A DNA stretch of 64,000 bases from Erysipelothrix rhusiopathiae (GTDB lineage: Bacteria; Bacillota_I; Bacilli_A; Erysipelotrichales; Erysipelotrichaceae): the NCBI RefSeq assembly GCF_900637845.1, contig NZ_LR134439.1, forward strand, positions 1,674,001 to 1,738,000, given 5' to 3'. Below are positions 1,771 through 52,186 of the stretch, piece by piece. Below the pieces are notes generated by a model that worked only from the letters and a program-made list of their open reading frames with translations, ran no database searches and was not told the DNA's origin. Each line of letters begins with the position of its first letter. Position 1 is the stretch's first letter. Position numbers and translations under genes: made by a program.

Positions 1771-2135
1771 ATAAATCTCCTTGTGAGTACGATAACTCCT
1801 ATAATGATTGCATATAGAGCCGCTAACAACACCGCACCAGCAGCAATATCTTTTATTTCCTTTACGTGCAAATTATAATTTTTAATTAGCAAATCACAAA
1901 TATCCTCAACTGCTGAATTTAAAAACTCAGTAACCAGAACCATAAACACCGCACTGATTACAAACATCCATTCAACAGGGGTGATCCCAATAAAAGCAAA
2001 AAAGACAACAGCAATCAACCCAAGAATAAGTTGAATAAGAATGCTGTGATCATATAACACTCCGGTCTTTACACCCTGAAATGCCGACTTAAACTTTTTT
2101 CGGGTGCGCTTAAGAATCTTTGCGAGCGATATCAT
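1767..2135 (-). CDS. dgkA: Diacylglycerol/undecaprenol kinase, DgkA family
   Basis: A small integral membrane lipid kinase; in Gram-positives it phosphorylates undecaprenol and so recycles the cell-wall carrier lipid. The 122-residue protein has three hydrophobic segments (about residues 33-51, 58-75 and 97-116). It has the family signature E-F-L-N-S-A-V-E-D-I-C-D, in which the two acidic residues bind Mg. I place the start at the ATG at 2135 (MISLAK, preceded by AAAGAGAT) rather than an upstream in-frame TTG at 2159. It lies inside the end of ybeY and overlaps cdd by 4 nt. The ybeY-dgkA-cdd-era order is the classic Bacillus arrangement. Confidence 0.92.
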   Translation of the reverse strand: MISLAKILKRTRKKFKSAFQGVKTGVLYDHSILIQLILGLIAVVFFAFIGITPVEWMFVISAVFMVLVTEFLNSAVEDICDLLIKNYNLHVKEIKDIAAGAVLLAALYAIIIGVIVLTRRFI

Positions 2136-2553
2136 GTAATATCTCTTTCTGGAGTCCAAACATTACGACTTCTTCTTCAGGTGTATGATGATCATACCCA
2201 AGTAAGTGGAGGTATCCATGCGCTACAAGAAAACAAAACTCACGTTTAATTGAGTGTCCGTATTCTTCTGCTTGTCGGCGAATCGCATCAACACTGATAA
2301 TAATATCCCCCATCATAAAAACTTCCCCTTCCATTGAACCATCCTCAAAGCTTAAAACATCTGTAGGACGATCAATATCGCGGAATTCCTTATTAAAGTT
2401 ATGAATGCTTGGGTCATCTACCAAAACAACATTAACTTCAACCGGATTTTTAAAACCAGTTTTATTTAAAGTCTCTTCCAATATTGGACTGAGGTATGTT
2501 TCAAAAGCATCCCAAGAGTCATCATTTGATTGATTAATATAATTTATTTCCAT
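2110..2553 (-). CDS. ybeY: Endoribonuclease YbeY, rRNA maturation factor
   Basis: A zinc metalloprotein needed for 16S rRNA 3'-end maturation and ribosome quality control. The diagnostic H-x3-H-x5-H zinc motif is present as HGYLHLLGYDHH near residues 111-122. The length of 147 residues is normal. It is the first gene of the ybeY-dgkA-cdd-era-recO run. A TATAAT-like element at 2572-2577 could start the transcript about 12 nt upstream. The 3' end overlaps dgkA by 26 nt. Confidence 0.95.
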   Translation of the reverse strand: MEINYINQSNDDSWDAFETYLSPILEETLNKTGFKNPVEVNVVLVDDPSIHNFNKEFRDIDRPTDVLSFEDGSMEGEVFMMGDIIISVDAIRRQAEEYGHSIKREFCFLVAHGYLHLLGYDHHTPEEEVVMFGLQKEILHDIARKDS

Positions 2554-2617: not shown

Positions 2618-3250
2618 TTAACCAAAATCTATATGACGTCCTTTAACAATATAGATAACATGCTCACAAATATTGGTTGCATGGTCCCCAGCGCGTTCAA
2701 TATTACGCAAGATTCCGATTGTTTGGGTGGGGATACGATCTGTTTCCAAAGGTTCAGATGCATAACGTGCCATAATCCCTTGAAATAACTCATCCAAAGA
2801 TTCATCCATCTCGGCCACATCGTAAGCATCTTTCACACTTGGGTTTTTGAGAAGTGACACCACGGCATCAAAATTTTCAAGAAACTTGGCGCCCAATAAC
2901 TCAACATCGCATTGATATTCAGGTTGCGACTCTTTACTTTTAATCACATATCGACCCATGTTCTTAGCATAATCACCAATACGCTCCAAATCCGCAGATA
3001 CCTTGATACCACCCACAACCATCCTTAAATCTTTAGCAACTGGTTGCATTAGAGATAGAATTTCAATCGCTTGATCATTAATGCTTTCGTCAGAATCGTT
3101 AATATAATCATCTTTTTCAATAACATTTAGAGCAAGTGTCTTATCTTCCGTTACAATCGCTTGAATTGCCATCGCCATTTGCTTGCGAACGCGATCTGCC
3201 ATCGTCAACAAATCCGTTTCAAATACTAACATTTTATCTTCTAGTCGCAT
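2618..3250 (-). CDS. phoU: Phosphate-uptake regulator PhoU
   Basis: PhoU is a peripheral all-helical protein that links the Pst transporter to the PhoR kinase and keeps the Pho regulon off when phosphate is plentiful. The 210-residue protein shows the two PhoU helical repeats. Their metal-binding signatures include DLRMVVGGIKVSADLERIGD in the first repeat and RNIERAGDHATNICE in the second. It is the last gene of pstSCAB-phoU, 8 nt after pstB, and is followed by a terminator. Confidence 0.96.
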   Translation of the reverse strand: MRLEDKMLVFETDLLTMADRVRKQMAMAIQAIVTEDKTLALNVIEKDDYINDSDESINDQAIEILSLMQPVAKDLRMVVGGIKVSADLERIGDYAKNMGRYVIKSKESQPEYQCDVELLGAKFLENFDAVVSLLKNPSVKDAYDVAEMDESLDELFQGIMARYASEPLETDRIPTQTIGILRNIERAGDHATNICEHVIYIVKGRHIDFG

Positions 3251-48871: not shown

Positions 48872-48901
48872 ATGAAAGAATAAGGGTTTTAGCCCTTATT
48901 C
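48872..48901 (-). terminator. Hairpin terminator of radC
   Basis: GAATAAGGG-N6-CCCTTATTC, a perfect 9-bp stem overlapping the stop codon, followed by TTTCATTTG. The T tract is short, so termination may be partial. Confidence 0.6.
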
Positions 48902-49603
48902 TTCAAACAAAACCGGATGCAAATTGCGCAGTGAAACCGAGTTTGTAGAAGTAACAATAATGTGGTCGACGACTTCAATTCCAATCATCATTCCAACCTC
49001 TATTAAGGCTCGTGTCACTTCCACATCCGCCTCACTGGCGCTTAATGACCCGCCTGGATGATTATGAACCAACACAATCCTTGATGCATTACATCGAACC
49101 GCTTCCCGAAAGACATCGCGAGGATGAACTAAACTCTTATCGGCTGTACCTTTAAATAAATCTAAATAACGTATCAAGTTATTTTGAGTTGATAAGAAAA
49201 GCACTCGAAATAGTTCCTGTTCCTCAAATCCAATTTCAAGATTTAACCAGCGAACAATTCGATCACATGAGCTGAGTTTGATTTTTTCTCCAGGGAATGG
49301 CATCACAATCCTTCGCAGCAATTCATGTACAGCAAGCAAAGTTGTACACTTCGCTTGTTTCATTCCTTTGATCTTTGACAGTTGACTGTATTGAATTTTA
49401 ATTAAATTTTGGATTCCACCAATCGACGTTAAAACCTCCGAAGCAAGGGAAACAACATTTTTATTACGGGTCCCTGTCCTAAGTAAAATCGCAACAAGCT
49501 CCTCATCCGTCAATTTATTCGGACCAAGCACCAACAGTTTTTCTCTTGGCAAAAATTGAGAACGATCCAAATCAACGTCCCCATTGAATTTTGGCTTTAC
49601 CAT
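48896..49603 (-). CDS. radC: RadC-family JAB metalloprotein
   Basis: A DNA-repair-associated protein of uncertain function. The 235 residues contain an N-terminal UPF0758 region (REKLLVLGPNKLTDEELVAI), a helix-hairpin-helix (IQYSQLSKIKGMKQAKCTTLL) and the JAMM motif RIVLVHNHPGGSLSASEADVE with its two His and Asp. The ATG has no convincing Shine-Dalgarno and lies inside the 40-residue ORF upstream, suggesting coupled translation. In other Firmicutes radC also neighbours mreBCD. Confidence 0.92.
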   Translation of the reverse strand: MVKPKFNGDVDLDRSQFLPREKLLVLGPNKLTDEELVAILLRTGTRNKNVVSLASEVLTSIGGIQNLIKIQYSQLSKIKGMKQAKCTTLLAVHELLRRIVMPFPGEKIKLSSCDRIVRWLNLEIGFEEQELFRVLFLSTQNNLIRYLDLFKGTADKSLVHPRDVFREAVRCNASRIVLVHNHPGGSLSASEADVEVTRALIEVGMMIGIEVVDHIIVTSTNSVSLRNLHPVLFEE

Positions 49604-49694
49604 AAGATAAACTGCCGCTACTACTTGTAAGGATTTTGTAAACAGCAGCCAAACCTATCAATACAATTAATCCTGTTAAATATAACGAAAGCAT
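49572..49694 (-). CDS. Small single-pass membrane protein (40 residues)
   Basis: Translation by hand from the ATG at 49694 gives 40 residues. It begins MLSLYLTGLIVLIGLAAVYK, one hydrophobic helix, followed by a Ser/Gly-rich polar tail ending KIQWGR. The Shine-Dalgarno GGAGGTGAT is near-perfect and 3-4 nt from the ATG. The last 32 nt overlap radC in another frame. I do not recognise it; it may be a real microprotein or a leader peptide that couples translation of radC. Confidence 0.6.
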   Translation of the reverse strand: MLSLYLTGLIVLIGLAAVYKILTSSSGSLSYGKAKIQWGR

Positions 49695-49737
49695 ATATCA
49701 CCTCCGCTACTAGGTATGTTCTTTAGAAATAACTTCA

Positions 49738-49768
49738 TAAAAAAAGAAAGAAACGTGTTCTTTCTTTA
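49738..49768 (-). terminator. Terminator of ftsA-ftsZ
   Basis: Minus strand: AAAGAAAGAA-CACG-TTTCTTTCTT stem followed by T5 and an A/T tail, about 35 nt after the ftsZ stop. Confidence 0.8.
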
Positions 49769-49802: not shown

Positions 49803-50879
49803 TTATCGTGTCTTAAAGAACTCAGGAATATCGTTATTTTCAGTGCGACGTTCTTCCTGATTGTTATGAGATGTTTGATATGCTGGTCTTGATTCTGCAG
49901 CAGTACGCGTAGCATGGACCTCAGGTGCAGGTTCTTCTGCTCCATCAAATCCAGTAGCAATAACAGTTACAATAATTGAATCTCCGATATTTTCATTAAT
50001 TGCAACACCAAAGATAATGTCAATATCATTTCCAGCTGCATCACGAATATAATCCACTGCTTCTGATGCATCTTGAATCGAAATTGAATCACCACCGGTA
50101 ACGTTCACAATCGCGTTACGGGCTCCATCAATTTGCGCTTCTAAAAGTGGTGAAGTAATCGCTTTTTGAGCTGCTTCGATTGATTTATTTTCACCCTGTG
50201 ACATACCGATACCAATCAAGGCACTTCCTTGTCCAGCCATAACTGAGCGAACATCCGCAAAGTCAAGGTTAATCATTGCAGGAACAGCAATAAGATCTGT
50301 AATTGTTTGAACACCTTGTCTTAAAACATTGTCTGCTTCTTTAAATGCTTCTTGGAATGGAATTCGTCCGATTACTTCGAGCAATTGATTATTGCTTACA
50401 ATAATGAGCGAATCAACGTAAGATTTCAACTCTTCCAAACCTGACATCGCTTGATTTGAACGACGACGTCCTTCAAATGTAAATGGTTTTGTAACGATAC
50501 CAACTACAAGTGCTCCCTCTTCTTGCGCAATTTTCGCAACAAGTGGAGATGCTCCCGTACCAGTTCCACCACCTAAACCTGCTGTAACAAATACCATATC
50601 TGCATCTTTTACAGCTTCACGAATTTCATTTTCACTCTCAACAGCAGCTTTGCGTCCCATTTCTGGATTCGCCCCTGCCCCGAGACCTTTTGTTACTTCA
50701 CGGCCTAATTCAATACGATTCACTACAGGTGAACAGTTAAGCACTTGCAAATCCGTATTTGCGACGTAAAATTCTACGCCCTTCATGCCTTCATCGACCA
50801 TGCGATTAACCGCATTACATCCTGCGCCACCGACACCTATTACTTTAATTCTTGCTACTTGTTCAAAATTCGCATCCAT
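49803..50879 (-). CDS. ftsZ: Cell division GTPase FtsZ
   Basis: Tubulin-like protein forming the division ring. In 358 residues: [17 protein letters not shown], the tubulin signature [25 protein letters not shown] and the C-terminal peptide DIPEFFKTR that binds FtsA. The ~45-residue linker before it is charged and variable. It follows ftsA by 18 nt. The murein and dcw genes usually upstream are absent here. Confidence 0.98.
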
Positions 50880-50897: not shown

Positions 50898-52133
50898 CTA
50901 ACGTTCAAAGAACATGCTCTTTAGTTTTTGAGTAATCGAGTCATCTTCATCTTTTTCATATTGTAACACAACTCGTTTAAACTCATCTTCATCAACGCTT
51001 GAGAGTGTTACATCACGGAATATACTTTGGTCTTTATAAAAGTAAAATGCCCCTACAAGAGATGTTAAACCATAGTCTTTTACACCAAATGTTGTAGAAC
51101 GGTATGTAACCGCCTCCGCTTCTGTTATTTTTTCAATACAATCTGTAACGCCTGAAATCTCTGCTGCTTCACCACTGATAATAAAACGTGGTTCTCCGAG
51201 ATTTTCGAAAATTGGGTCACAACTACTACATATTTCGCCCACAAATTTATGAATATCATCTGCGACTAAATTCATAAGATCTACCTGTGATAAGGTATGG
51301 GATGTCGATTTAGTCGACCAAATAAATATTGGGTCATCTTTCGGATTTTCATTATTCAAATCGATATTAAAATACAACAAACGATGTACAACATCAGTTG
51401 GTACCTTTAATGTGCGTTCGATTTTTTTCATAAAGACTTCAAATCCACGATCAATATAATCATTCGATAAGAGAATCCCTTTACTGAATAATGATAATTT
51501 AGTTAACTTTTCACCTAATGTTAAGGCAACAATCGGCTTGTCAATCGATGCTTCGAATAAAGAAGCCTCTTTTGCAAAACCAATGTCATCTAAAACAATA
51601 TCAATAATCTTTAATCCTGATTTTTCAACACATGACACATATGGGAAAATGATGGATTGTTTTCCAAAGTAGCAATCTGCTTCAATAGTCAAACTTTCAC
51701 ATCGTTCGTTTAATGGTAATTTACGTGTCGAACTTCCGTTCACAAAATATTTACTCATTAAAACATTTGTTAATATATGTCCTTCAGGAGCTTTTACGTT
51801 TAATAATTCTTTATATGCTCTTTTTACATCATTCTCAGAAATACGCCCAGTGATTGGTACGCGCAATTGTTTATTAATTCGCTTCATGTGGACGCCTGGA
51901 ACAAGTAAGAGTACTTGCTTAATTACAACCCCCAAATTTCGCGATGCATTTTCAATCGCTTTTTTAATTGAATCGACCACATGTGTTTCACTCATGATCG
52001 AGTAGCCTGCCACACCTAAATGTGGGACACGTTCAACCTTTAATATATTTAATCGGCCATTGAAAAATTGTCCAACTAACAAGCGCACTTCATGATCCGC
52101 GATTTCTAAAGCTGCAATAATTTGTTTCTCCAT
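50898..52133 (-). CDS. ftsA: Cell division protein FtsA
   Basis: Actin-like protein anchoring FtsZ to the membrane. The 411 residues begin MEKQIIAALEIADHEVRLLV and include ISENDVKRAYKEL (1C region) and RFIISGEAAEISGVTDCIEK. The C-terminal amphipathic helix SITQKLKSMFFER is the membrane anchor. The sequence is diverged in the phosphate loops compared with Bacillus FtsA. GGAGG precedes the ATG at 52133. Its place before ftsZ fixes the identity. Confidence 0.93.
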   Translation of the reverse strand: MEKQIIAALEIADHEVRLLVGQFFNGRLNILKVERVPHLGVAGYSIMSETHVVDSIKKAIENASRNLGVVIKQVLLLVPGVHMKRINKQLRVPITGRISENDVKRAYKELLNVKAPEGHILTNVLMSKYFVNGSSTRKLPLNERCESLTIEADCYFGKQSIIFPYVSCVEKSGLKIIDIVLDDIGFAKEASLFEASIDKPIVALTLGEKLTKLSLFSKGILLSNDYIDRGFEVFMKKIERTLKVPTDVVHRLLYFNIDLNNENPKDDPIFIWSTKSTSHTLSQVDLMNLVADDIHKFVGEICSSCDPIFENLGEPRFIISGEAAEISGVTDCIEKITEAEAVTYRSTTFGVKDYGLTSLVGAFYFYKDQSIFRDVTLSSVDEDEFKRVVLQYEKDEDDSITQKLKSMFFER

Positions 52134-52158
52134 CAGCGAACCTCCTTGTGCTATTATC

Positions 52159-52186
52159 ATAATATCATAATAAAGTCCAATAGCAA
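52159..52186 (-). promoter_or_regulatory. Promoter of ftsA-ftsZ
   Basis: Minus strand: -35 TTGCTA (52181-52186), 16-nt spacer, -10 TATTAT (52159-52164), about 25 nt before the ATG. Confidence 0.6.

Follow-up and report, generated by a model that had tools for sequence, protein, structure and literature searches.

The question raised by this locus is whether a 40-codon open reading frame (ORF) that overlaps the start of radC in Erysipelothrix rhusiopathiae is a gene in its own right, and what its product may do. In the window, that is, the whole stretch of 64,000 nucleotides that was analysed, the ORF runs from 49694 to 49572 on the minus strand, consists of 40 codons followed by TGA (41 open codons only) and encodes the product MLSLYLTGLIVLIGLAAVYKILTSSSGSLSYGKAKIQWGR. 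Two bases 5' of its ATG there is a Shine-Dalgarno sequence, GGAGGTGAT (49697..49705, minus), the GGAGG core of which is kept in G006 and G009 and reads GGGGG in G004. The product of radC (48896..49603, minus) contains the UPF0758_N and RadC JAB domains (Pfam PF04002 at 1.3e-36 and PF20582 at 1.5e-21), and its motif HNHPGGSLSASEAD is intact. The longest radC ORF begins with the ATG at 49603, which gives an overlap of 32 nt with the peptide ORF (49572-49603). No Shine-Dalgarno-like run is found in the 20 nt 5' of this ATG. The start itself is not certain; an ATG with an open frame at this position is common to G000, G006 and G009, and in the Erysipelothrix genome G004 this frame is interrupted, its radC ORF beginning 3' of the peptide stop. 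The peptide has one hydrophobic segment (highest 19-residue hydropathy 2.15, from residue 1) and a net charge of +4 beyond residue 19. The sequence thus bears out the initial annotation, which had described a 40-residue membrane ORF with a near-ideal Shine-Dalgarno site, overlapping by 32 nt a radC start that lacks its own.

One reading of this arrangement is that the ORF serves only the translational coupling or the regulation of radC, and that the sequence of the peptide is irrelevant. The 32-nt overlap fits it, as do the strong Shine-Dalgarno sequence at the peptide with none before radC and the start/stop overlaps that are found in many relatives. However, the codon changes are nearly all synonymous, also outside the radC overlap: in six pairs among four Erysipelothrix species, pS is 0.25-0.67 and pN is 0-0.09. 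This comparison, which the initial annotation had proposed as a check, shows that the peptide is conserved and under purifying selection at the amino acid level. Furthermore, its motif is kept across families, seven f8 genomes retain the peptide although they have no RadC match, and the JAB domain of 38 genomes lies 600-1500 nt away, mostly with another gene between in the loci examined. We consider it very improbable that coupling is all there is to this ORF. A chance ORF is ruled out by the selection pattern and the conservation across relatives, and, judged by its sequence, the 40-codon ORF is confirmed as a real gene.

The peptide spans several families of the class. A profile built from 18 relatives matches in 96 of the 315 genomes of the order at E <= 1e-6; with a loose cut-off of 0.1 the order-wide search returns 132 genomes, matches inside long proteins included. 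Family f2 of the order (G036-G078) has the peptide in 40 of 43 genomes, and a class-wide search at E <= 0.01 gives matches in 77 of 394 genomes, 48 of which do not belong to the order. The hallmarks of the family are one transmembrane helix, a Lys/Arg behind it, a C-terminal beta hairpin, an S-x-x-G motif and a near-terminal Trp; the peptide occurs mostly in a single copy per genome and at a fixed chromosomal place. In genus g29 there are three tandem copies before a SPOR-like gene and radC (L106, L110, L017), with a fourth copy on another contig in G040, and some of the copies are more diverged. In genus g71 (L097, L098, L132, L137, L389) two diverged leaderless peptides adjoin each other ahead of radC, which looks like a two-component form that evolved once the leader had been lost.

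An AlphaFold2 model made with 50 homologues (mean pLDDT 85) has a helix at residues 2-23 and strands at 26-31 and 34-39, which form a two-stranded hairpin; it supersedes a single-sequence AlphaFold model with one long helix and a poorer tail. A Foldseek comparison of the model with the PDB gave 73 matches at E <= 10 and none at E <= 0.001. In Pfam, NCBIfam and PHROG the window peptide has no match above noise, and FeoB_C, its best Pfam match, was discarded as not significant (E = 0.49). The 'new microprotein' suggested from the sequence alone is therefore supported by the purifying selection, the spread over several families of the class and the lack of a known model, and the peptide family has apparently not been described before. 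Among the matches listed in our literature search, which were judged from titles and the starts of abstracts, cover subscription journals little and leave out a gut smORF survey (PMC13376575), no paper describes the peptide family, the C39 peptidase gene that is linked to ybeY in relatives, or the mycoplasma substrate discussed below.

The upstream neighbour of the peptide gene in the window is ftsZ (49803..50879, minus). In the gap between them, folding reveals an A+T-rich hairpin followed by a T run (49739..49766, minus; 85-nt fold, z -2.5), which is possibly the ftsZ terminator; a stricter terminator scan called no terminator, the hairpin being seen by folding only. The window also holds a very diverged FtsA homologue (50898-52160), with SHS2_FTSA at 9e-5 as its best Pfam match and the FtsA domain at 0.09. 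Among the 80 loci that we read, ftsZ lies directly upstream of the peptide in the four Erysipelothrix only, and with one intervening gene in two other genera; otherwise the upstream gene varies, being valS-like in many f2 and f8-type loci and different elsewhere. The 'cell-division neighbourhood' that the initial annotation had named is therefore not a conserved context, and we dropped the idea of a cell-division gene, since the linkage with ftsZ is local.

Because the gene upstream of the peptide changes, we see radC, and not cell division, as the constant partner. When 119 peptide genomes were compared with RadC searches, a RadC match was found in 107. In 103 of these it follows the peptide on the same strand at no more than 1.5 kb (JAB domain at up to 600 nt in 65 genomes and at 600-1500 nt in 38). 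In the remaining four, RadC is 2.7 kb off (one genome) or on another contig (three). RadC is unmatched in the other 12 peptide genomes, although BLAST reveals a fragment of it at the end of a contig in G253; the seven f8 genomes mentioned above belong to genera g128 and g155. Where a gene stands between the peptide and radC, it is mostly SPOR-like (80 loci), and the gene 3' of radC is mreC in the majority of loci from f1 and f2 and a different one in f8 and f19. The proposal of a coupling peptide for radC thus stands in part: the 103/107 linkage and the start/stop overlaps fit coupling, but the conserved protein sequence and the peptide genomes without RadC are not explained by coupling alone.

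The same linkage, retained while other neighbours change, is what one would see if the peptide were dedicated to RadC, as its partner or as an anchor through which RadC acts at the membrane. Such a bond is at odds with the 12 of 119 peptide genomes in which RadC has no match (the fragment of G253 among them), and also with the many genomes of f1, the family of the window, in which RadC is present and the peptide absent. We regard this reading as possible but rather doubtful. In 20 peptide-negative f1 genomes in which radC was read, 19 show the upstream sequence, and no comparable small ORF was seen there by eye. The role of RadC is poorly understood, and the peptide adds a constant neighbour to it.

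In families f2, f8, f19, f24, f25 and part of f1, about 15 residues precede the peptide, and these fit the double-glycine leader of bacteriocin-type precursors. The published recognition pattern has Leu-12, Glu-8 and Leu-7 before GG (PMC6363468). Over 40 leaders, a strict consensus of six positions (-12, -8, -7, -4 and GG) is matched at 187 of 240 places; 1000 shuffles, with the site chosen anew in each round, gave a mean of 113 and a maximum of 126. A hydrophobic residue is found at -12 (LIVM) in all 40 leaders (Leu in 38) and at -4 (ILVM) in 33, Glu at -8 in 26, LMIV at -7 in 21, and an exact GG in 27. Several f8 leaders have PG or TG instead of GG, and leaders beside the bare peptidases described below often have GR, GK, GL or GM, with one GS; in the peptides of G022, G279, G280, G282, G035, G271 and G275, the -1 residue is R, K, L or M and a bare C39 stands alongside. 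These -1 substitutions possibly reflect a changed cleavage specificity. Since the -1 residue is R, K, L or M, or GG became PG or TG, cleavage is doubtful in those genomes. In genus g26 (L103 4853-5011, L119, L120, L126), a second double-glycine peptide with a different core directly follows the first (for example, MKELPISIQKETNGG and then FALPFIITIAAVVAGLNTARLIKTHYSITRNR) and is probably processed by the same peptidase as the first.

The window peptide and those of 24 other f1 genomes have no leader; in a few leaderless f1 genomes the open frame extends upstream, without the leader consensus. The leaderless start Met is 19-22 residues before the conserved Lys/Arg (16 sequences), and the predicted mature ends of nine f1 leaders are 19-23 residues before it. 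The family as a whole, with exceptions, thus carries the leader of double-glycine peptides and PCAT substrates; its window member (49572..49694, minus) does not and starts near the predicted mature end, as a leaderless member of a double-glycine family. The state of the leader was read from sequence, except in G274, where it comes from profile coverage alone.

A whole-genome search for C39 peptidases (E <= 1e-5) found a match in 24 of 24 leader-bearing genomes of f2 and in 19 of 19 of f8, f19, f24 and f25, in 2 of 25 leaderless f1 genomes and in 3 of 12 other f1 genomes. Of 80 genomes regarded as peptide-negative or not listed, 26 have C39 as well, five of the 26 being mycoplasma-like (G317, G328, G337, G347, G355). 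The whole genome of the window gave no match. At 20 loci fetched at C39 matches, the gene lies just upstream of ybeY in 8 of 8 cases from f2 and 10 of 10 from f8, f19 and f25, in a row resembling ybeY-cdd-era-recO, with a small ORF intervening in two; fetched in this way, the f2 and f8-type loci show the position of C39 and not an unbiased count (one of three C39 matches was taken for G071). The C39 matches of the leaderless G005 and G009 are away from ybeY. In the window, ybeY (2110..2553, minus), the site at which leader-bearing relatives have a C39 gene directly upstream, is preceded in that place by a phoU-like gene (2618-3250). An ORF for a small membrane protein of 130 aa (1767-2159), which we take to resemble DgkA, overlaps the end of the window ybeY by 50 nt.

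The form of the C39 protein differs between families. The f2 proteins have 669-687 aa, and in two that were scanned with Pfam, C39 is joined by membrane and ATPase domains. Of ten proteins of the f8 type, nine have 371-410 aa and one has 170; four of them were scanned, and C39 is present with no ATPase recognised. In f1, where the search began from ybeY with a profile made of the C39 proteins of f2 and of the f8 type, a ybeY-linked C39 gene is found in 14 of 14 leader-bearing, 0 of 25 leaderless and 0 of 21 peptide-negative genomes; the last set includes G033 and G163, which have peptide matches at chance level. The f1 peptidases are bare proteins, 111-127 aa in length, and their genes immediately precede ybeY. 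In a Pfam scan of 10 of the 14, C39 is the sole match in all 10, at or above the Pfam cut-off in G024, G274, G279, G282, G035 and G281 and below it in G261, G211, G031 and G022. The catalytic residues of C39 are kept (Cys in 32/33, His in 33/33, Asp in 33/34). The bare peptidases begin at or just before the Cys, without the Gln before it that is the usual oxyanion hole residue.

JAB peptidases can act at Gly-Gly, and RadC itself was considered as the protease that cuts the leader. This was rejected on three grounds: RadC is retained by leaderless genomes, it has no match in seven f8 genomes that bear the leader, and in the set tested it is the ybeY-linked C39 whose presence follows that of the leader. 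A separate, bacteriocin-like arrangement appears, from its sequence, to be present in the f12 genomes G324 and G334 (L348, L349), in which short peptides with a double-glycine-like leader adjoin a full-length C39 transporter-like gene.

To see how leader and peptidase are distributed on a tree, we used a FastTree tree of RadC and YbeY from 66 genomes that have both. The states of the leader and of the ybeY-linked C39 agree in 66 of 66 genomes: 26 have both, and among those without C39, 22 are leaderless and 18 peptide-negative. Counted without regain, there are six joint losses, with clade support of 0.73-1.0; some parent nodes are weak (0.18 for one), and the count of six holds for this tree. 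Leaderless peptides persist in four of the six loss clades. When independent losses of C39 were simulated (20000 runs for each of three rates), no run matched the leader in more than 59 of the 66 genomes. Exceptions or partial cases that the tree leaves out are G270, G055, G069 and G068. In G270 (L122) the N-terminal extension is double-glycine-like but departs from the leader consensus, and the genome has neither C39 at ybeY nor a RadC match; the extension is possibly a transitional form. G055 and G069 have neither peptide nor RadC match, and their ybeY C39 protein is partial and full-length, respectively. The f2 genome G068 has RadC and the SPOR-like gene with no peptide before them, and its ybeY-linked C39-like protein (L309, L318) has no aligned catalytic Cys, a telling case of joint decay of peptide and C39. 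Leader and peptidase thus appear to have vanished together repeatedly, with Erysipelothrix as what looks like the leaderless end state.

We are fairly confident of the following full explanation: the ORF encodes a functional single-pass membrane peptide, probably coupled to radC, that is the leaderless descendant of a C39-processed double-glycine precursor. Beside the gene, its family, its position, the leader motif and the co-occurrence with C39, which are read from the sequences, we infer cleavage, membrane location, orientation and function as follows. The ancestor would have been an old, mostly single-copy and apparently vertically inherited double-glycine peptide, the leader of which keeps the hydrophobic peptide from inserting in the membrane until it is cut. 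A C39 cysteine peptidase encoded beside ybeY would recognise the leader helix and cut at or near GG, releasing a peptide of about 40 residues that forms a helix and a C-terminal beta hairpin and ends near the Trp. The mature peptide is predicted to remain in the membrane of the cell that makes it, the basic hairpin (net charge of +4 after residue 19) facing the cytoplasm. Its gene position makes an envelope or RadC-linked housekeeping role our best guess. The C39 protein takes the forms of a full ABC transporter (f2), a shorter protein with no recognised ATPase (other families of the class) and a bare peptidase (parts of f1). In Erysipelothrix, with no C39 at ybeY and the start codon about where the cleavage site was, the peptide would be translated from its own strong ribosome-binding site, probably in coupling with radC, and, since synthesis starts at the mature end, would insert in the membrane directly.

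The leader and the transporter could also mean that this is a family of bacteriocins or secreted signalling peptides, of which Erysipelothrix has a relic or a leaderless form. The canonical double-glycine leader, the full peptidase-ABC transporter in f2, the tandem copies in one genus and a sub-threshold match of two members to the bacteriocin model TIGR03949 agree with this, and the full transporter of f2 argues for export there and against retention in the membrane, so that export of the peptide is possible in f2. On the other hand, the peptide is mostly single-copy, at a fixed chromosomal place by radC across several families and under strong purifying selection; one f2 member has no match in 72,556 plasmid records and the window member none in 50,697 phage records. 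In 14 genomes, moreover, the transporter part was lost and peptide and peptidase were kept, which suggests retention rather than export. We think it unlikely that the family consists of bacteriocins or signals, and prefer the membrane peptide with a housekeeping role.

Possibly related peptides are also found in mycoplasma-like genomes. The genomes of f16 (0.6-0.9 Mb, read with code 4) have a double-glycine peptide, some 80-100 residues long, whose core (S-x-x-G-E ... K-W) is similar. In 12 of the 16 genomes read, it is immediately followed by an rplU-like gene (G455, G713, G654, G669, G727, G675, G593, G688, G674, G720, G730 and G703), seven of these loci having been fetched because of the peptide match; it is absent from this place in G337, G347 and G363, and a fragment is present in G355. 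In G473, G557 and G532 the peptide is beside lspA-ileS-like genes. The f16 profile matches the profile A2 with a probability of 97.9 (E = 3.7e-13), which would support homology with the family of the window, although most f16 peptides had themselves been found with A1 or A2. By pattern match, rplU- and rpmA-like ORFs are found within the same 8 kb as peptide and radC in 13 of 18 f8-type loci, which suggests that the f16 peptide occupies the same place with radC gone. In the f11 genome G323 (L359), which lacks the peptide, a radC-like gene immediately precedes rplU, as would be expected, going by the sequence, if the peptide alone was lost. In 12 genomes of f4, f9, f11, f12 and f13, no ORF of the double-glycine type was flagged before rplU.

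In f5, a 130-aa protein before rplU starts with MQKLKDNELKDIKGG in G317, and the corresponding protein of G328 starts with MQKLKVDKLKDIKGG. G696 has a related peptide before rplU, G408 has none, and rplU of G491 was not found by the script. The f5 peptides match the f16 profile weakly (E = 1.6e-6, from four sequences), and their link to the family of the window rests on the leader, the place and this weak match. In G317 and G328 a C39 transporter-like gene stands directly before ybeY-era-recO, and among the mycoplasma-like genomes, the double-glycine peptide and the ybeY-linked C39 transporter were seen together in these two only. The f16 genomes G337, G347 and G355 have a C39 transporter at ybeY, with a small ORF between in two (loci fetched at C39 matches); in f16, peptide and ybeY C39 transporter are seen in different genomes.

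For the C39 protein 0401 of the minimal cell JCVI-syn3A, a 2019 paper states that no candidate double-glycine peptide was identified, nor apparently in other mycoplasmas, and proposes lipoyl uptake instead (PMC6609329). The peptides before rplU suggest themselves, by sequence and place, as a candidate substrate for this retained transporter, and the candidate place makes the question of the 0401 substrate directly testable. A wider claim, about which we are evenly divided, is that a core, non-bacteriocin double-glycine peptide system, with the peptide before radC (or before rplU in genomes that lost radC) and C39 before ybeY, is older than the split between Erysipelotrichales and mycoplasmas. 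It would supply the substrate of the Mbov_0121-type transporters, including 0401, and the processing exporter would have shrunk to a bare peptidase and finally disappeared, the leader going in step with it.

The usual reading of peptidase-containing transporters is that they serve bacteriocins or pheromones. In the present case, the processing peptidase and the peptide look like housekeeping genes; the joint disappearance of the leader and its likely peptidase points to an overlooked housekeeping peptide system and offers a clean case of repeated co-loss. The peptide of the window is a real, conserved microprotein, apparently undescribed so far, and would stand at the leaderless end of a two-locus double-glycine system of housekeeping character.

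How does this system compare with known ones? The class IIb bacteriocins of the lactobin A/cerein 7B type (TIGR03949) share the double-glycine leader and the hydrophobic core with the peptide family. Two members match this model at E = 7e-4 and 1e-3, with scores of 19.3 and 18.5 that are below the cut-off of 21.5, and no bacteriocin family model is above its cut-off in the 8 and 6 sequences scanned; no bacteriocin gene context was seen around the peptide. A C39 domain outside an ABC transporter, as here, is also known from the FapD-type peptidases (NF058616), to which one f8 C39 domain has a weak match (4.8e-10, missing the cut-off of 330); FapD belongs to amyloid secretion in Pseudomonas (PMC5557850).

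Like the PCAT/AMS systems, the relatives have a leader with hydrophobic residues at -12 and -4, often Glu or Gln at -8, and GG, together with a C39 that has Cys, His and Asp, and C39-membrane-ATPase proteins in f2 (Pfam, two proteins). Unlike them, peptide and processing gene are here in two separate housekeeping loci, mostly in single copy; one group retains the peptidase alone, and another has neither peptidase nor leader. The best NCBIfam model for one f2 transporter is NF045998 (Mbov_0121 family peptidase domain-containing ABC transporter), with E = 2e-79 and 267.6 bits, below the cut-off of 500; the ybeY-linked transporter of G337 exceeds it with 554.9 bits, and the G317 protein has 68.8 bits. 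The name and description of NF045998 state no substrate, and the peptides described here are proposed as the candidate substrate family.
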